DNA from: a virus
Direction: 5' to 3' (one strand)
DNA length: 22,509 bases
IMG/VR virus record: IMGVR_UViG_3300043464_001401
Location: 1 to 22,509 of that record
Part shown: in pieces, positions 2,219 to 18,614 of the stretch
Numbering within the stretch: position 1 is the first letter of the stretch
Layout: the number at the start of each line of letters is the position of its first letter
The notes under the pieces: model-generated
The model's input: the letters and a program-made list of their open reading frames with translations, nothing else
Told to the model about the DNA's origin: nothing
The model's database searches: none
Made by a program: the position numbers and the translations under genes

Positions 2219-3079
2219 TTAAGCTGCGAGGACTTTAATACACTTGTTTCCGCCTTGGATACCAAGGGCAGTTCCGAAAATCAAGTCAACTGAGAGCATG
2301 TAGCCATGCTTACCAGTTGGGTGAAGATCGGAAACTTTGATAGCAAGTTCTTTCGCCATGACGAGGTGAACTGCGTCAGGGTGGAAGAAGTAGCCAACAT
2401 CAGTTGCAAGGCTGTTGTCTTCAAAGATCTGGAATCCGTAGCGACGAAGGCCAAGCTTACCAGAGATAACTGGGGTATCAGCTGCGCCGAAGTCAGAAGA
2501 AACCAAGCTTTGAGAAGCCAACACGTCGGAGTAGTAAGAAGGATCGATCAGGCCATACCAACCCTTCATTGTGTCCCACTTAGCGGCAGCAGCCAATTGA
2601 CGGATCGCGAGCAATTGGGTGTTGTTGAGGTCTGTCACGCTGTTAAGCAAGTGATCAGGTGCCGATGTAGATGGAACCATTGCAGTGTAGAGCGCTGTGT
2701 TGACAGCTTTTTCGACTGCAAAAACAAGGGACTGAACAACTTCAGGATTTCCTTGGTTAAGCAAAGACATCAGTTCAACTTCGTCAGCGATTTCATATGC
2801 AGCAGTTACGTGCTTGTTAGCAACGATATCGACATAAGAGGTCGATACTGCAGAGGGAGTGAAGACGTTGGAGTTCGTTGTGCCAATAGTCGTAGTCGAT
2901 GCCGAAGGAGCATTGACTTGGTACACGCGAACGGTATCGCCGCCACGCTTCAATTGACCTTGGTAATCTTTGTTGACCAAAGCGCCGAGAAGCAGGCTCT
3001 CACGAAGCTGCTTCATAGCGACTGGTGCCCAGTATTTCTCTACTTGATATTGTACATCGCCCAAATTTGTACTTGCCAT
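2219..3079 (-). CDS. Major capsid protein
   Basis: A 286-aa protein with the sequence character of P22/HK97-fold major capsid proteins. The N-terminus has a helix and a 'LLLGALVNKDY' stretch, then a GGDTVRVYQVNAP strand near residue 46, a Thr/Ser-rich loop, a helical segment (about 95-135) and a C-terminal half with YGLIDPSYYSDVL and AVHLVMAKELAIKV blocks typical of the A-domain. It would self-assemble into the procapsid around the scaffold. The ATG at 3079 follows AAGGAG at seven bases. It sits directly after the scaffold-like gene, the expected order. No prohead protease is present nearby. Confidence 0.88.
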   Translation of the reverse strand: MASTNLGDVQYQVEKYWAPVAMKQLRESLLLGALVNKDYQGQLKRGGDTVRVYQVNAPSASTTTIGTTNSNVFTPSAVSTSYVDIVANKHVTAAYEIADEVELMSLLNQGNPEVVQSLVFAVEKAVNTALYTAMVPSTSAPDHLLNSVTDLNNTQLLAIRQLAAAAKWDTMKGWYGLIDPSYYSDVLASQSLVSSDFGAADTPVISGKLGLRRYGFQIFEDNSLATDVGYFFHPDAVHLVMAKELAIKVSDLHPTGKHGYMLSVDLIFGTALGIQGGNKCIKVLAA

Positions 3080-3114
3080 TGTTTCACTCCTTGAAAGTTG
3101 GCTTTTGTTTTAAA

Positions 3115-3702
3115 TTAAGAACCCCAAACGATTTGATCTGGCTTCCATTTGTTCATTTCGGCAACCGTCTTGAGACTTTTCCACTCGCTTTCGCTGATCT
3201 TTCCACCACTGTTTCCTTGCGGAGCATTGGGTGGAAGCGTTGCTTTTCGCTGGATCATCTCTGGCCATTGTTTTTTGAGTGACTCAGCCACTCTCGCAAC
3301 GGTCATTTGGTCAACTTCGCCGGTGTCTGGATTTAAGGCCACATCGTCAGTTTCAATCAATCGCAACCACTTCTGATCTACTTGCCCGCCCAGAGCATCG
3401 ATAACAGCGTTGATCTTTCGGCCAGTGTTGATGCGCTCAGTAAGCTCCTGCCTTTGAGCACGTTCCTTAGCCAGTTCTTCATCGCGTGCCTTAAGTAAAG
3501 CCTCGTAGTCGCCGCGCTTCCTTGCCTCGGCATCTTCGCGCTCTTTATCCTTGGTGAGCAAGGCATCAAGCTGGGCCTGAACCTTTTTCTTCTCATCAAG
3601 TAACTTGCGGTGAGCTTCGTAACTAATCTTGCCTGTTTCTTGATTCTCTGGCGCGGCCACAGGCTCACCAGACTGTCCCTCAGGGACTTTCTGCTCGGTC
3701 AT
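3115..3702 (-). CDS. Scaffolding-like protein
   Basis: A 195-residue, highly charged protein with a long predicted coiled coil (about residues 27-95, rich in Lys/Glu/Arg with few aromatics), a disordered acidic N-terminus and a basic or polar C-terminal tail. It lies immediately before the major capsid gene, where phages encode the internal scaffold that shapes the procapsid and is later expelled. No protease active-site motif is seen, so it is not a fused protease-scaffold. The ATG at 3702 follows AAGG at about six bases. The function rests on composition plus position. Confidence 0.8.
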   Translation of the reverse strand: MTEQKVPEGQSGEPVAAPENQETGKISYEAHRKLLDEKKKVQAQLDALLTKDKEREDAEARKRGDYEALLKARDEELAKERAQRQELTERINTGRKINAVIDALGGQVDQKWLRLIETDDVALNPDTGEVDQMTVARVAESLKKQWPEMIQRKATLPPNAPQGNSGGKISESEWKSLKTVAEMNKWKPDQIVWGS

Positions 3703-6364: not shown

Positions 6365-7720
6365 TCAGAGGATAATTGACCGTGAATCTGGCCGATTTAA
6401 TTGCTTATGGTGCCTTACAATACCATATCCCAGCGCCGTCGTGACGTGCTGGAATTTTTTGGAGTCGTCTTCTATCAGGTTAGCACCTTTTTTAAACGCT
6501 GTCAGTCTTAGGCCCTCGTCAAGGGTCGGGCAGTTGTGGATAAACAGACGCACATCACCGAGATCATTGCGGCACAAAGCGTTAATGGTGTTATGCCTGA
6601 GCCTGATTGCCGGGTTTGAAAGCGGAACTTTGTAAGAATACTTGATGTTATTTCTATCAAGAGCTTCTTTTATGATCTCATAGTCACTACGCTTTGAAGA
6701 CGTATGCCTTGCCTTGCCGCTGGCGTCACCGTCAATCTCGTAGGTTTTTCCTTCCGTGATGATGCCACGCTCTAAAAACTCTTTGACTGCTTCCTCTGTT
6801 CGAGCTCCTTCAATGATGACTTCCGCAAAAGCGTGATAACAGCCGTCTTCGTATGCCACGGCACAGGCAGACAAAGGCTTGCCGTCTCCGATGTTAAAGT
6901 CCCAGCAAATCATGATTGGGGTTTCTGGCCGTGGTTTCCAGTTGGCTTTACTATACTGAGATGCCGAGTCGTATTGGTAGTAGATGACTTCTTCTGCGAT
7001 CTCAATCCACTCGCCGTAAAGCATACGCCTGGCCCGCTTGGGGTCGAGGTCTGTTTTGAGCTGTTCAATGTACTGTTTAGGGAGGAAAGGATTGTCCTCA
7101 GTTCTTGAGTAGTACACATGCCGAGTAGGATGTTTTGAGCCGCCACGATTGGGAACAATAAAATGTTTGTAAGCCCAGTGACTAGGAGAGTCTGGGTTAG
7201 TTGCACTAATAATGAGAGGACAAGCAATATGCGGAAGGCGACCAACACGCATCTTAATTTCATGGTAAGCATTTTCGTCGTCTCCATTGTTCTCCGTTAG
7301 TTCTTCAATCGCTGCTCCTGAGAGTTCTAGCGAGCGTAGTTTACTATAACGCTTATCAGCCCATGATTTTGAGATAATCTCGCTGCCGTTGACAAACCAA
7401 ACCTTGCCGATGTTATGCCACACGCGGTAATAGCGAGAGTCAATGCCTTCGAGGTGTTCAAGTATCTTGAGATAAAGCGTGTCCTTTAAGTCAGGCAAGG
7501 CGCGACGGCCTATGAGAAACCTTGCACGATTATTCTCAAGGCAATGGCGGATGATAATATGCGCCATGAGAATTGACTTGGCCGACCCTACCGAGCCGGA
7601 CAATAAAACCTCATGCGTACCTTTTGAGTAGTCATATGAGGCTATATCGTCAATAACCTGGCTTTGAAACGGAATGATCGTCGGATCAAACTCTGTAAAT
7701 GTTGGAGTTGAGCCGATCAT
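6365..7720 (-). CDS. terL: Terminase large subunit
   Basis: This 451-aa packaging motor has an N-terminal ATPase with Walker A SGSVGSAKS (about residues 41-49), Walker B AIEELTE (about 137-143) and coupling motif ISATNPDSP (about 172). The C-terminal RNase H-like nuclease has an ICWDFNIGDG first-acidic strand, EIDGDASGKARH second and FQHVTTALGYGI third. The length is typical. It cuts concatemeric DNA and drives it into the procapsid through the portal. Its ATG overlaps the TGA of the methyltransferase gene (ATGA), which places that gene firmly inside the late operon. Confidence 0.93.
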   Translation of the reverse strand: MIGSTPTFTEFDPTIIPFQSQVIDDIASYDYSKGTHEVLLSGSVGSAKSILMAHIIIRHCLENNRARFLIGRRALPDLKDTLYLKILEHLEGIDSRYYRVWHNIGKVWFVNGSEIISKSWADKRYSKLRSLELSGAAIEELTENNGDDENAYHEIKMRVGRLPHIACPLIISATNPDSPSHWAYKHFIVPNRGGSKHPTRHVYYSRTEDNPFLPKQYIEQLKTDLDPKRARRMLYGEWIEIAEEVIYYQYDSASQYSKANWKPRPETPIMICWDFNIGDGKPLSACAVAYEDGCYHAFAEVIIEGARTEEAVKEFLERGIITEGKTYEIDGDASGKARHTSSKRSDYEIIKEALDRNNIKYSYKVPLSNPAIRLRHNTINALCRNDLGDVRLFIHNCPTLDEGLRLTAFKKGANLIEDDSKKFQHVTTALGYGIVRHHKQLNRPDSRSIIL

Positions 7721-8754
7721 CTAAAAAACTGTCTCTCAATTTGATCCGCAACACGCTGCATCATAAATGGAGGCACGGACATGCCACAGAAATATCCAAT
7801 ATCTTGTTTCCCAAAAATATAATCATCAGGAAATGTTTGTATTCTTTTACATTCATCATCAGATAAAAATCTGTCAGAATTATAAAAAATATGTCTATTT
7901 GAAGCCGTCAATGTTTTGCATGGTTGATCTAAAATAATTCCTTTATTTGCAAAGAATTTTTCTTTTCCAAAATTTTTTATAGCCCATTTTACAACTTCAT
8001 CTGTATTATTTTGTGCCATCCATTGGCCTGCACCAATTAAACTTTTAGGCACTGATTTTGCATTTTGATTTATCAATCCATTAAAAGCATATTTTAATGA
8101 AATTTGATTTTCATTAAATTGAAGTTTAATTTTTTTACCTAACCTATTAGCAATAAAAAATGTCCGTTCCCTTTTTTGAGGGACCCCCATTGCTGCCGCG
8201 TTTAAAAGAAATAACTGACAATCATACCCAGCATCTCTAAATGCTGCAAAAATTTCTTTCACATAACCGCGAGCATTTCCTTGAATTAAACCCTTTACAT
8301 TTTCGGCCACTACAACTTTTGGCTGTAGTTTTTTTGCAATCGCAATAAAATCAAAAAACAAGTCATCAAGAACCTGTTCAGCCTGACCCTCTCTAAATTT
8401 CTTTTTTTCTCCCCAAGCCTTTTCTCTGCTTCCAGCCATTGAAAAACTTGAGCACGGCGGTGAGCCGTCAAGAATATCTAACTCAAATAATTCCTTTGGT
8501 AATTGGTCATCAGGAATATTTTTAAATTCTTGTACGCCCATTAGATAAGAATGCTTTGGATTATGATTTGCGCGGTAAATTTTCATCATTTCTGGGTCAA
8601 TTTCAACCCCGCCCAAGACCTCGTACCCAGCAAGTTTATAACCCATTGTAGAACCGCCGCCACAATGAAAGCATGAAAATACTTTTAAGCCATTTTTTGG
8701 AACGTCTTTAAGTTCTGTTAAATTCCATGGCCCAGTTTTTAGTTGAGCAACCAT
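7717..8754 (-). CDS. C5 cytosine-specific DNA methyltransferase
   Basis: A 345-aa protein with the ordered motifs of C5-MTases: motif I SCFHCGGGSTMGY (about 27-39), acidic VEID (50-53), catalytic GSPPCSSFS with Cys101, ENVKG (151-155) and QKRERTFFIA (193-202). A variable target-recognition region follows, then a C-terminal GMSVPP (about 324) in place of the usual GNSVPP. It probably methylates phage DNA against host restriction or marks packaging sites; no cognate endonuclease is nearby. Base composition is clearly more AT-rich than terL and portal, suggesting separate acquisition. It overlaps terL by 4 nt and the ParB-like gene by 1 nt. Confidence 0.9.
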   Translation of the reverse strand: MVAQLKTGPWNLTELKDVPKNGLKVFSCFHCGGGSTMGYKLAGYEVLGGVEIDPEMMKIYRANHNPKHSYLMGVQEFKNIPDDQLPKELFELDILDGSPPCSSFSMAGSREKAWGEKKKFREGQAEQVLDDLFFDFIAIAKKLQPKVVVAENVKGLIQGNARGYVKEIFAAFRDAGYDCQLFLLNAAAMGVPQKRERTFFIANRLGKKIKLQFNENQISLKYAFNGLINQNAKSVPKSLIGAGQWMAQNNTDEVVKWAIKNFGKEKFFANKGIILDQPCKTLTASNRHIFYNSDRFLSDDECKRIQTFPDDYIFGKQDIGYFCGMSVPPFMMQRVADQIERQFFR

Positions 8755-11057: not shown

Positions 11058-11340
11058 CAGGCCACGTCCTCCGAGAGTCGTTCATATCTGCGGCCAGCGG
11101 CTTAAGGTAAAAGTCGTGCCTTATCTTGAGGCAGATGGCTGTGAGCTCGTTGGCGCGTTCAATGGCGAAACTAAAACCATTTTCCTCACGAAAGGTTGTG
11201 ACTGGAAGCCCGTGCTCCTGCATGAGCTTACACACGCGATCTTCTGCTTCACAGGCGCCGGAGAAGGTCTGACGATGACACGCGAGGAACAATTGTGCCT
11301 TGCGATTGAACACGCTCTCGCTCCCTTGCTTTTTTCTTAG
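11035..11340 (+). CDS. HExxH putative metallopeptidase
   Basis: A 101-aa protein with the zinc-protease signature HELTH (residues 63-67) in a helix, preceded by an AFNGETKTIFL strand pair. Glu at 84/85 or 92 could be the third zinc ligand. This compact layout is common in small phage peptidases of the SprT/ImmA-like gluzincin type. The substrate is unknown; proteins controlling the host or a repressor are usual guesses. It is coupled to the phosphoesterase by a 23-nt overlap. Its last 92 nt overlap, tail to tail, a minus-strand zinc-ribbon gene. Confidence 0.72.
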   Translation: MASKSPFNRPRPPRVVHICGQRLKVKVVPYLEADGCELVGAFNGETKTIFLTKGCDWKPVLLHELTHAIFCFTGAGEGLTMTREEQLCLAIEHALAPLLFS

Positions 11341-11536
11341 AGTCTTTGCGTGCTCCAACGATTGTCATCAGTTCAAGACTCGGACAACTTGGGCAACGTT
11401 CAATGTCAATGAACCCTGCTACCTTTGTTTTTCCCCAGCGCTTTTGACAGTGAGGACAAACGCTGCCGTACTTCGCAGGGTCATTTTGCCGGTAGATGTG
11501 ATGGCATACGTCGGATTTTCTAAAACTTGTTCCCAT
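11249..11536 (-). CDS. Small zinc-ribbon hypothetical protein, 95 aa
   Basis: Residues about 26-52 carry two Cys pairs, VCPHC and CPSC, spaced like a zinc ribbon. The C-terminal ~35 residues are strongly basic (Lys/Arg-rich), suggesting nucleic-acid binding. It follows the 109-aa gene by 12 nt on the same strand, with only a weak ribosome site (GAAAG). The last 92 nt are antisense to the HExxH gene, so the basic tail could be partly a shadow of that gene. No family is recognised. Confidence 0.5.
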   Translation of the reverse strand: MGTSFRKSDVCHHIYRQNDPAKYGSVCPHCQKRWGKTKVAGFIDIERCPSCPSLELMTIVGARKDSKKKARERERVQSQGTIVPRVSSSDLLRRL

Positions 11537-12088: not shown

Positions 12089-12120
12089 ACGCACCTTTCA
12101 CGGTGTTAATGGTTGAAAGT

Positions 12121-12149
12121 TATTTATTTTTTCCGCTCGAAAAAGTAAA
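12121..12149 (-). promoter_or_regulatory. Leftward promoter candidate for 12088-11249
   Basis: On the minus strand TTTACT (12144-12149), a 17-bp spacer and TAAATA (12121-12126). It lies 33 bp before the ATG at 12088 and diverges from the structured RNA region. The match is moderate in AT-rich DNA. Confidence 0.4.
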
Positions 12150-12155
12150 CTAAAA

Positions 12156-12609
12156 AAAGGCGAGTAACCCAAAAGCCTTTAAACTGGGTAGACAAAATAA
12201 AATCTGTTTTTGTCATCGCGCCGAAAGACGGCAACAGTTGAGCGTGCTACCAAAGCGGCACGAGTTTCGTGGACGGAGTGAGTAACTAGACTGGTAGAGG
12301 TACCACCTAGCGAAGGGGGCCGAGAAGCGGACTAATTGCCTGAGAGAAAACAGGCGACTTATTCAAACCAATCCTGTTACAGGGCTGGGAGTTCTGAGAA
12401 GTCAGAGCTGGTTTTAGGTAAGTTACTGAGTCTGATCAATGGGCCTGCCGGCGGCTACCTTGCTGCCTAGCGGCAGCCCAATACTCTACCGCAGTAAATC
12501 AGATTGAGTTATTTACCTACAACTAACGGAATGAATATGATTGATGGCTATACGGGCCTAGCTATTCCTCTGCGGATCTCTGCAGGTAAGTAAGGGAATA
12601 TAAAACCCT
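12156..12609 (+). ncRNA. Candidate large structured RNA of unknown class
   Basis: No credible gene lies in this stretch, but it contains consecutive and nested helices. These include an H-type pseudoknot (12156-12189), hairpin 12191-12214, GCCG/CGGC (12220-12232), CTAG+TGGTA capped by GAGG (12286-12310), GCCTG/CAGGC (12338-12355) and a three-way junction closed by AAACCA/TGGTTT (12365-12414) with a TCTGA-GAAG-TCAGA arm. A 21-bp long-range stem follows (12416-12436 with 12498-12518, two mismatches) enclosing TGGG-C-CTGCCG/CGGCAGCCCA (12440-12480). At least five pairs are G-U when read as plus-strand RNA and would be A-C on the other strand, which supports this orientation. It may be an independent RNA or the leader of the gene at 12636. 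It does not match tRNA, tmRNA or RNase P hallmarks. Exact ends are uncertain. Confidence 0.7.
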
Positions 12610-12635
12610 GGTATGCTTTACTTTGGAGGATTCAT

Positions 12636-13004
12636 ATGCCACTAGAAAAACCAGAAGAATATTGCATTTTATGCAAGGATTATGTGAAAGGTGACAAAGT
12701 TGCTTTTGAAGTGAAAGTGAAATCACCTGTGGATGGTGGCGCATCTACATGGTGGCAACTTGGAACAATCTGCGGAAGCAATGAAAGAACTTTCTTTTAC
12801 GAAACCGAATCAGGAAGGTTAGAGCCTGTTGAAAATTGTTCTGTTGCTTATCGACTTCCTTGGGCTGATGAACTTGTCCGCAACCTGCTTTCAAAAATAT
12901 ATTTGAAGAAAAAATATAAATTTAAACTTCCAAAAAGCTACGCTGCGGAATATTGCCGGTTAATATCACGCAATAAAGATAAGCCAACTTACCAATGGCG
13001 TTAA
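12636..13004 (+). CDS. Hypothetical protein with CxxC, 122 aa
   Basis: The ATG at 12636 has a strong ribosome site (GGAGG, six bases). The product begins MPLEKPEEYCILCKDYVKG: a CxxC pair at residues 10-13 and a further Cys near 45 could bind metal. A strand VAFEVKVKSP and an STWWQLGT segment follow, then a basic C-terminal helix region (IYLKKKYKFKL). No family is recognised. It lies directly downstream of the structured RNA region, so it may be controlled by it. It converges with the endolysin gene, 30 nt away. Confidence 0.7.
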   Translation: MPLEKPEEYCILCKDYVKGDKVAFEVKVKSPVDGGASTWWQLGTICGSNERTFFYETESGRLEPVENCSVAYRLPWADELVRNLLSKIYLKKKYKFKLPKSYAAEYCRLISRNKDKPTYQWR

Positions 13005-13034: not shown

Positions 13035-13490
13035 TTACATACTACTTTCAACGATGGACCAGAGTGTTAGCAAACCCTGTTCCTTGGCTATTTTCTGGGC
13101 TTTTTGGGTGCTCAGTCCACCTGTGATCTGAAAGTGTGGGCGCTCAAACTTTAAGCTACTAAACCCGTGACTGATCATTATTTGTTCAATCCTATCGTAA
13201 TCAATAGACCAATCCCACTTGCCGTTAGTCTTACCCACGATATCCCCTGCGAGGCCGTATTGGTGCCACGACTGGCCTGCTTTCGCGTGAGTAATGATCT
13301 TACCAGGCTCGGTCCTTCCCTGCGCATATAGTTGATTCTGGCGCGTTTCAGAGCGATATCCCTCAAACAACTCAACCTGATACCCCTCAGCTTGACATTG
13401 TGACAATGCTGTGCGTAATTTTTGAGCAAAGAAGGGTGCAAGGTCATCAAAATTTCTGTTGATTAACTGTTTACTTTTTTGTGATTGCAT
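13035..13490 (-). CDS. Endolysin, M15 L-Ala-D-Glu / D-Ala peptidase type
   Basis: 151 aa from the ATG at 13490, which has GGGAG nine bases upstream (the longer frame to 13520 adds an unlikely N-terminus). The M15 fold signature is clear: EGYRSETRQNQLYAQGRT (43-60), SWHQYGLAGDIV with zinc ligands His76 and Asp83, and ERPHFQI with His119. Enzymes of this type cleave the peptide stem of peptidoglycan and release progeny. There is no signal peptide or membrane segment, so export would need a holin. It stands alone on the minus strand, between plus-strand genes. Confidence 0.9.
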   Translation of the reverse strand: MQSQKSKQLINRNFDDLAPFFAQKLRTALSQCQAEGYQVELFEGYRSETRQNQLYAQGRTEPGKIITHAKAGQSWHQYGLAGDIVGKTNGKWDWSIDYDRIEQIMISHGFSSLKFERPHFQITGGLSTQKAQKIAKEQGLLTLWSIVESSM

Positions 13491-13539
13491 TATAAAAGAC
13501 TCCCACAAAATGCTAACCAATTACACAGGAGTGACATGA

Positions 13540-17159: not shown

Positions 17160-17926
17160 TTTTCTATGTTGCTTGTGCCATCACGCTTTTGTTCATGGCT
17201 TCCTTGTCTAAAGCAGACTCAAACGAATTGACAGCAAAAGATTACCGACTTGCATGGCGCTATGGGTATTCCGGATCTGATCTGAGGGAAGCTCACCGGG
17301 TTGCAAAAAAGACAAATACTCGGACAATTACTAACGATTTCATGCAGTCACTTGAGCATGACGAGTTTGACGCAGCACAACAAGCTGATCAAGCTATGGA
17401 TCAATTGATTCTAACAGCCGGAATTTATCTGAGAGCAGAAGGACACGACGCCCTAGCTGACGAGATCGGCCTTGATTATCAGCTTAAATACCGGGGCAAT
17501 TTTACTCGCATGTTTCTTAGCGAAAAAGAAATCGGTGATCATCCTCCCGTCAGCCAGTGGATTGAGACTATCCACGCAGAAATCCATGAAGCTATCGGTG
17601 ACTGGCTCTGTCAGGGTAGTCATCTCCATGACATGTATATTTTAAATCATGGAAATGTGGTCTTTAAACCTTCAATGGCGACTGATCTGAAAGACTACAA
17701 AGACCACTTTGCAGGGCATTTGATATGGGGCTGGTACTGGGAGCATCACGGTTTTGCTGGGGTAGTAAGCTACTGGCTTGTCAATGCTGCGTGTTCTGCC
17801 GCAACGTCAGGCATGGGCTTAGTTACATTCGCTTGCGGGCCTGTCTCTGGGTTCGCTGAGAACCAGGTTGATAAGCGGATCGCACCACCCATCGCCGAGC
17901 GAATCTGGAAGCGTCGCGGCGAGTAA
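17150..17926 (+). CDS. Exported hypothetical protein, 258 aa
   Basis: A Sec-type signal peptide is clear: Arg near the start, hydrophobic core FYVACAITLLFMASL, and a likely cleavage after SKA near residue 22. The mature protein is about 236 aa, acidic and His-rich in the middle (DHPPVSQWIETIHAEIHEAI, then HLHDMYILNHG), with a hydrophobic HLIWGWYWEHHGF stretch and a Cys/Gly-rich segment before a basic end. The His clusters might bind metal. No family is recognised. An exported protein beside lysis-type genes suggests host-envelope interference or a lysogenic-conversion factor. AGAGG lies six bases before the ATG. Confidence 0.78.
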   Translation: MRVIFYVACAITLLFMASLSKADSNELTAKDYRLAWRYGYSGSDLREAHRVAKKTNTRTITNDFMQSLEHDEFDAAQQADQAMDQLILTAGIYLRAEGHDALADEIGLDYQLKYRGNFTRMFLSEKEIGDHPPVSQWIETIHAEIHEAIGDWLCQGSHLHDMYILNHGNVVFKPSMATDLKDYKDHFAGHLIWGWYWEHHGFAGVVSYWLVNAACSAATSGMGLVTFACGPVSGFAENQVDKRIAPPIAERIWKRRGE

Positions 17927-18160
17927 CTCTATGCTACAAGCCATGGCGTCAGCAATGCACTTGGCTTCTACCGTTAAAAAAGCGTTTTTTCGGGACCGGT
18001 CAAGTAACTTGGTCCCAAAAACTTCCTCGATTTTACGAAGTCTTTGACTAATTGCAGGCTGTGTCAGGCACAAAAGCTTGCCGCAATTTGTGACAGATGA
18101 TCCATTTACAATGAGGATCATCACTAAAAAATCATCGATGTCTAGTTTTCTGAGTGACAT
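17819..18160 (-). CDS. LysR-type HTH-only regulator, 113 aa
   Basis: The N-terminal ~65 residues form the winged HTH of LysR-type regulators: LDIDDFLVMILIV, CGKLLCLTQPAISQRLRKIEEVFGTKLLDRS, with the TQPAISQRLRKIE recognition helix at 33-45. The usual 200-residue effector domain is absent; a short helical tail follows and the stop is at 17819. The last 108 nt are antisense to the exported-protein gene. It likely acts as a small dimeric repressor or activator in the phage, and a TGATA-N6-TATCA dyad lies on its own promoter. There is no Shine-Dalgarno before its ATG. Confidence 0.75.
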   Translation of the reverse strand: MSLRKLDIDDFLVMILIVNGSSVTNCGKLLCLTQPAISQRLRKIEEVFGTKLLDRSRKNAFLTVEAKCIADAMACSIELLAATLPDSLGDGWCDPLINLVLSEPRDRPASECN

Positions 18161-18240: not shown

Positions 18241-18552
18241 CATTTGACTGGCACCAATCACAAAATCCCTGACCTCATTTTTTGTGCGCAAGACGACAGC
18301 CATCCCGCCGGTGTGATTGAGCTTTGTGATCCACTCAATTTGCTCAGAAGAAAGTTTACCTTCTGCCGCTTTCAGTTCGATCGCAAAGAAGCGCCCGTTT
18401 GGCATGACGCCTGCGAGGTCAGGAAAGCCCTTGATAGGAGACTTCTTTAGGACGCCGCCATGCTTTACCGGGCCATTGGCAACACGCCACCAGACGAGTC
18501 CTGACTGTTTTAAACAGGTGATTGCAAATGAGAGTAGTTCAGATTCTTTCAT
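18220..18552 (-). CDS. VRR-NUC domain nuclease
   Basis: 110 aa with the PD-(D/E)XK core of the VRR-NUC family: VWWRVANGP, GFPDLAGVM with Asp45, FFAIELKAAEGKLSSEQ with Glu59, Lys61 and Gln71. Family members are small structure-specific DNA nucleases. Here it may serve DNA processing with RecT and SSB, or resolve branched DNA before packaging. The ATG at 18552 has GAGG four bases upstream. A strong hairpin lies between it and the preceding minus-strand gene. Confidence 0.85.
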   Translation of the reverse strand: MKESELLSFAITCLKQSGLVWWRVANGPVKHGGVLKKSPIKGFPDLAGVMPNGRFFAIELKAAEGKLSSEQIEWITKLNHTGGMAVVLRTKNEVRDFVIGASQMKTRLAD

Positions 18553-18568
18553 AACACCTCAAATGCGG

Positions 18569-18595
18569 AAGCGGGGCCGTCAAAGGCTCCCGCTT
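18569..18595 (-). promoter_or_regulatory. Strong intergenic hairpin without T-run
   Basis: AAGCGGG-GCC-GTCAAA-GGC-T-CCCGCTT gives a ten-pair stem with one bulge. No T-run follows on either strand, so it is not a standard terminator. It may be a processing or stability element between the two minus-strand genes. Confidence 0.45.
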
Positions 18596-18614
18596 GGCTG
18601 GTGTACTAAAGGTA

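Follow-up and report, generated by a model that had tools for sequence, protein, structure and literature searches.

A structured RNA of an uncatalogued family occupies the place of a replication initiator gene in a group of uncultivated tailed phages

The ColE1 replicon needs no initiator protein; its replication primer, RNA II, is non-coding, structured and about 500 nt long (PMC5043065). Some cluster A mycobacteriophages (viz. Alma, LadyBird and RedRock) lack the RepA of their relatives and have a transcribed, non-coding prophage origin of about 400-500 bp, and such RNA origins alternate with RepA among related phages (PMC7157519). In the Lactococcus phage c2 (Ceduovirus), the promoter of a non-coding transcript, PE1, lies close to the lysis genes, where two divergent gene blocks leave a gap; this origin works without phage proteins, and the origin types vary among related phages (PMC7150918). 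The locus described here is similar to each of these systems, although it is not a recognisable homologue of any of them. With ColE1 RNA II it shares a structured non-coding RNA of similar size and a replicon in which no initiator protein of its own was recognised; however, the R-loop, the RNase H cut and the antisense RNA I of ColE1 have not been shown for the phage RNA, and there is no Rfam match in the region. As in the mycobacteriophages, a non-coding putative origin of similar size is found in phages that lack the initiator of their relatives, but the Alma origin matches neither our profile of the RNA (nhmmer, E<=10) nor our covariance model R1, and no parABS cassette was recognised beside the phage RNA. 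The likeness to phage c2 lies in a non-coding transcript near lysis genes, which here is inferred, like its promoter, from sequence alone, and in the variation of the putative origin type among relatives; however, the c2 origin gives no sequence match (nhmmer, E<=10) and no R1 match, the best R1 match in c2 lying outside the origin (E 0.03). No covariation model of the PE1 transcript was found. A fourth system for comparison, the lambda-like origin consisting of a DnaD/O-type initiator with iterons inside its gene, occupies the same slot in sister phages, but it is a protein gene with repeats, which is replaced here by the RNA.

The DNA that was analysed (the window) is a virus record of 22.5 kb from an uncultivated tailed phage, whose contig is incomplete. 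Its terminase, capsid and scaffold genes are on the minus strand; other genes encode RecT, SSB and a nuclease of the VRR-NUC type, and the terminase shows only about 25% identity to those of cultured phages. A C5 cytosine DNA methyltransferase (7717-8754) adjoins an ORF of 166 aa, which we take to be ParB-like and for which Pfam gave only a weak rhodanese match; a small LysR-type HTH protein (17819-18160) is found in this phage and also in the related phage G001 (L160:7826-8173). The GC-skew minimum of the window is at 12101, but it was not used as evidence because the switch in gene direction is also located there. The initial annotation had described 12150-12620 as a region without genes, richer in GC than its flanks, that contains a large structured phage RNA of unknown class. 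The region is indeed gene-free, the only overlapping ORF of at least 60 aa being 12562-12744 on the minus strand, and its GC content is 0.477, compared with 0.417 upstream and 0.458 downstream. We consider it probable that the replication-initiation locus of these phages is formed by a free-standing non-coding transcript, about 465 nt long and with its own promoter, and that this transcript starts replication, likely as a primer; the transcription, the replication role and the priming are all inferred. The broader inference that this RNA has some role in replication initiation appears to us highly probable. What the analysis demonstrates is an RNA with a conserved fold and a strand bias, which occurs in five phages and stands in the slot in place of the initiator gene.

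Relatives of the window phage were retrieved from IMG/VR by means of its terminase, metallophosphoesterase, endolysin and M12-like proteins. A profile search revealed homologues of the RNA in four other IMG/VR phages, viz. L027, L020, L021 (the same as L022) and L019 (the same as L003, and cut by the contig end). The sample thus comprises five members, one of them partial, and consists of metagenomic contigs. From 5' to 3', the RNA contains the pseudoknot, H1, a GAAA hairpin (in one subgroup only), H3, H4, H5, H6, H7, H8 and H10. Its features in the window are as follows.

12123-12151, + strand: promoter-like element TTTATT-N17-TAAACT (consensus TTTAYT-N17-TAAACW)
12156-12620, + strand: the whole structured RNA, from comparative folding and covariation
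12156-12189, + strand: 5' H-type pseudoknot (S1, 12156-12161 with 12175-12180; S2, 12167-12171 with 12185-12189)
12191-12214, + strand: hairpin H1 (12191-12197 with 12208-12214), double changes at 5 of 5 compared pair positions
12220-12232, + strand: hairpin H3, GCCG-AAAGA-CGGC, double changes at 4 of 4 pairs, loop RAMGA kept
12240-12618, + strand: closing stem P1 (12240-12248 with 12610-12618), from the MFE fold, the least certain helix
12312-12319, + strand: GAAGGG block in arm H4, invariant in 5 of 5 members, 133-156 nt past the start of the pseudoknot
12338-12355, + strand: hairpin H5 with an A-rich loop (12338-12342 with 12351-12355), double changes at 5 of 6 pairs
12368-12388, + strand: hairpin H6, from the fold of the window; a CCUGC/GCAGG hairpin is at the same place in L019, L020 and L021
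12390-12409, + strand: hairpin H7 with a GAAG loop, loop unchanged
12411-12523, + strand: arm H8 (outer helix 12411-12420 with 12514-12523; inner helix 12432-12436 with 12498-12502), from covariation
12421-12431 and 12503-12513, + strand: internal loop of H8, 11x11, its sequence partly conserved
12437-12497, + strand: apical insertion of H8, absent in L027
12564-12599, + strand: 3' arm H10 (12564-12568 with 12595-12599 and 12570-12573 with 12582-12585), from covariation

In its carriers the RNA is always in the same slot, and by both the profile and R1 (of which H5 is the core) it is absent from all other relatives; a search with R1 over the whole contigs of 27 relatives recovered the known members only. 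A sequence search in phages and plasmids gave no match, and due to this no cultured relative can be named. The pseudoknot pattern was met in 31 stretches of viral contigs, of which all except the known members lacked both the pairing of S1 and the sequence that is conserved downstream, and in 18 stretches of bacterial genomes, all of them chance occurrences as judged by R1 and the profile. When a descriptor combined the pseudoknot with GAAGGG, the right spacing was seen in known members only. No prophage was found in bacterial genomes by alignment of the metallophosphoesterase, and when relatives were finally sought with the adjacent M12-like protein, none that turned up carried the RNA. Comparison with every family of Rfam 15 (including GOLLD, ROOL, HEARO, OLE, raiA and ARRPOF), a check that the initial annotation had proposed together with a test of covariation, found no family at the gathering threshold; a permissive search (E<=10) gave nothing beyond chance, the best match at the RNA (E=6) being to unrelated human lncRNA families. 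The RNA is a new, uncatalogued family. A group I or II intron and RNase P were also considered; neither has an Rfam match, and the RNA lies between genes. A tRNA or tmRNA was likewise rejected, as ARAGORN detected none in the window.

The covariation test revealed strong compensatory change among the homologues, which together with the absence of an Rfam match bears out the description of the region as a large structured RNA of unknown class, and we have hardly any doubt that this structured RNA is real. Between the window and L027, 14 of 43 pairs are changed on both sides (shuffled mean 7.1), and among L020, L021 and L019 this is true for 17 of 77 pairs (shuffled mean 6.7); in neither case did any of 500 shuffles reach as high a number, and both tests were run on alignments built from sequence only. 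The cells of the named helices can pair in 97.6% and 99.0% of cases in the two alignments, compared with 30-45% when slid by 1-3 columns, and the compensatory changes exceed those in all slid controls. The column-shuffle z-scores from RNAalifold were -9.2 for the window with L027 and -11.9 for L020 with L021, with no shuffled alignment folding as well; these are two-sequence alignments, whose columns were shuffled within classes without keeping dinucleotides. Double changes are also seen at 41 of 89 positions in a hand-made list of 15 helices. However, that list was picked by eye, and the objective tests are the RNAalifold shuffles and the compensatory-change tests. The folding energy of the single sequence is -160.6 kcal/mol on the + strand (z -3.5; none of 100 shuffles as good) and -136 on the minus strand (z -2.5). 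This energy is not decisive, since among 186 stretches of 240 nt along the contig the one at 12361 is only the second best on the + strand (z -4.5). The best of these, at 18481 (z -6.4), holds a GC-rich hairpin between convergent genes (18568-18600), which is probably a two-way terminator.

As the alignments give good folding scores on both strands, and as a DNA element would also suit the location of an origin, one may ask whether the conserved structure is one of single-stranded DNA (e.g. a single-strand origin or a primosome site) rather than of RNA. We regard this as very improbable. The initial annotation had pointed to G-U pairs on the plus strand, and, counted over all members, the supported helices contain 11 G.U cells and only 1 A.C cell, which fixes the + strand as the functional RNA. 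Further, the terminal loop at one site is CUUG in some members and GCAA in others, on a stem that covaries, and such switching of tetraloops is typical of RNA; the promoter-like element upstream also speaks against a DNA structure.

Several of the individual helices proposed earlier require correction. The 5' pseudoknot had been overlooked; the inner pair of its S1 is G-C, U-A or A-U depending on the member, and the outer pair of S2 covaries between C-G and U-A. The "21-bp stem" (12416-12436 with 12498-12518) does correspond to covarying helices, of 10 bp and 5 bp, but it is not continuous, as the 11x11 internal loop of H8 separates them. The 10-bp stem at 12440-12480 belongs to a peripheral insertion that is missing from L027 in the alignment, whereas the arm with the GAAG loop could be retained at 12390-12409 (H7), where 3 of 8 pairs are changed on both sides. 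The stem with the GAGG loop (12286-12310), a prediction from the single sequence, sits in a fast-changing arm. The equivalent of P1 is a perfect helix of 9 bp in L020 and contains a mismatch in L021. H10 carries a conserved GTAAGTAAG (12586-12594 in the window) or GTAGTAGG. Within the apical insertion of H8, a block with the sequence CCTGCCGGYGGC (12441-12452), which contains a near-palindromic GCCGGC/GCCGGT, is common to the window, L020 and L021 and is absent in L027; it might act as a loop for kissing or for dimer formation.

The element TTTAYT-N17-TAAACW is present once each in the window, L019, L020, L021 and L027, directly 5' of the RNA, and it was not detected in any of the nine RNA-less relatives that were scanned. 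In the window and L027 the pseudoknot begins 2-5 nt after the end of the second hexamer, which is close for a sigma-70 start, and hence the reading of the element as a promoter is counted as inferred. At the other end, the window RNA stops shortly before a ribosome-binding site and an ORF (12636-13004), so that the RNA could be taken as a cis-regulatory leader of this gene. To this we give almost no credence, and it was rejected because the downstream genes are not conserved: L020 has no + strand gene downstream, L021 has an HNH gene on the minus strand, L027 has an unrelated ORF, and the ORF at 12636 has no homologue in any relative. A homing element associated with HNH can similarly be set aside, as HNH is found in L021 only.

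The slot in which the RNA is found is bordered in the window by two genes.

11249-11536, - strand: zinc-finger-like gene, left edge of the slot, whose homologues flank the RNA or the initiator gene in relatives
13035-13520, - strand: VanY-type endolysin, right edge of the slot

The slot holds the RNA and an orphan ORF in the window, the RNA alone in L020, the RNA and the HNH gene in L021, and the RNA, small ORFs, DnaB and a protein of 133 aa in L027. A replication initiator of the DnaD-like or O-like kind fills the slot in L018, L029, L026, L002/L097, L101, L102 and L096, and L094 has there a divergent initiator with the same kind of C-terminal part (a weaker match, E 2e-6); an initiator is thus present in 8 of 8 RNA-less relatives with a readable slot. 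The PHROGs matches are to DnaD-like helicase loader, O-like and replication initiation families, with E down to 1e-26 (L018, L029, L026 and L002), and the initiators of L096, L101 and L102 were recognised by profile and BLAST. DnaB is also present in L026, L094 and L096, and L102 has the initiator next to the zinc-finger gene, with the endolysin located elsewhere. The RNA and the initiator never occur together (4 vs 8 of the 12 phages with a readable slot; Fisher p=0.002, a nominal value because the phages are related). A tandem array, in which a unit of 11-12 bp is repeated 4.5-7.7 times, is present within seven of the eight initiator genes, and L094 has only a weak one. These arrays, which encode repeated peptides, are probable lambda-O-like in-gene origins of replication and are located as follows.

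L018, 8049-8110: array in initiator gene
L029, 13850-13941: array in initiator gene
L026, 13140-13189: array in initiator gene
L164, 262-320: array in initiator gene
L163, 14578-14639: array in initiator gene
L102, 9623-9673: array in initiator gene
L096, 7227-7279: array in initiator gene

No such array is present by the slot in the RNA-bearing phages, and no convincing DnaA boxes or direct repeats were seen near the RNA. An array of about seven copies of TAGAATGGTA is present in the RNA-bearing phage G003 (L168:1665-1733), far from the RNA and upstream of its packaging genes. In the more distant L031, L032 and L087, neither the RNA nor a DnaD-like gene was seen in the stretch covered, so other solutions than these two exist.

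The exchange at this slot is most directly seen in pairs of sister phages. G001, with the RNA, and G009, with the initiator, are 89.5% identical in DNA over 27.6 kb; the exchanged stretch corresponds to 2452-3140 in G001 (RNA) and 34040-35042 in G009 (initiator gene), and homology restarts about 10 nt beyond the 3' end of the RNA. The remaining differences are in the metallophosphoesterase region and the tail-fibre genes. Similarly, G002 (RNA) and G008 (initiator) show 85.8% identity over 23 kb and differ at the slot. Both sister pairs are well supported in the terminase tree, whose well-supported branches force at least three changes between RNA and initiator. The existence of sisters with about 90% identical terminase and portal but no RNA rules out a packaging RNA (pRNA).

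GOLLD, ROOL, HEARO and OLE, to which the initial annotation had hinted at kinship, are likewise large and complex RNAs, some of them in phages. It is conceivable, but in our view unlikely, that the present RNA is an ornate RNA like GOLLD or ROOL (a cargo or oligomeric RNA whose benefit is unknown) and reached a variable slot by chance, replication depending on genes that were not recognised or on the host alone. The comparable size and complexity, the CCTGCCGGYGGC block as a possible kissing loop, and the restriction of the RNA to some phages of the group are in accordance with this. However, no Rfam covariance model of these families matches, there is no tRNA in the window, and the genome context is different and points to replication initiation; a chance landing also does not account for the finding that in every case it is the initiator gene which is replaced, nor for the mutual exclusion of initiator and RNA.

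The reading of the RNA as the starter of replication rests on the consideration that the job done in the sisters by the initiator and its iterons needs doing, and that the RNA occupies their place. However, the replacement in the slot is an association and should not be interpreted as demonstrating function. Among the criteria for an RNA-based origin are a replicon without its own initiator protein and a conserved non-coding transcript with its own promoter. The first is met, as the initiator profile found nothing on the contigs of the window, G001 and G002 and only a weak match in L027 (G003), to a C-terminal-like fragment of 133 aa (E 2e-4). For the second there are the conserved + strand structure and the promoter-like element, which are evidence from sequence alone. 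PHROGs detected no initiator, helicase, primase or polymerase in G001, only RecT and SSB; however, an estimated 2 kb is missing from G001 next to the terminase and many of its genes are of unrecognised function, hence an unrecognised initiator is not excluded.

In the mechanism that we propose, the + strand RNA would be transcribed from its own promoter, substituting for the DnaD/O-type initiator gene of the relatives and its internal iterons, and would fold co-transcriptionally. At or close to the 3' end of the RNA, the transcript may then stay paired with its template in an R-loop and be trimmed by host RNase H; the trimmed transcript would prime leading-strand synthesis by a host polymerase, and the opened strand would load the host helicase or, in L027, the phage DnaB. 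Priming of the ColE1 type is proposed because it is the simplest mechanism, known from ColE1 and proposed for phage c2.

The phage L027 counts against the origin reading, as it has kept DnaB and, possibly, a fragment of a loader along with the RNA. That fragment (L027:5851-6252), the 133-aa protein, is similar to DnaD-like initiators in their C-terminal part only (hhalign prob 53%, E 1e-4). The combination of RNA, DnaB and such a fragment could instead indicate that the RNA acts not as a primer but as an initiator that recruits host DnaB, PriA or primase directly, and its elaborate conserved fold, with a pseudoknot and conserved internal loops, also exceeds the needs of a simple primer. We know of no system in which an RNA recruits the replication machinery directly, and no evidence presented here distinguishes recruitment from priming; we regard recruitment as quite unlikely. 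In its fullest form, to which we attach equally little weight, the folded RNA would take over the opening of the origin and the recruitment of helicase or primase from the DnaD/O-type protein and be freely swapped between near-identical phages, and in L027 it would work with the helicase and the helicase-loading half of a lost initiator.

If the reading of the RNA as the starter of replication is correct, then a family of RNAs that is not catalogued, and whose secondary structure is resolved, would join the very few RNA-based origins of phages. The sister phages would, in addition, be near-isogenic pairs provided by nature, one member having a folded RNA where the other has a protein initiator and its iterons, and it would become testable what the structure of a transcript must provide in order to replace an initiator protein.
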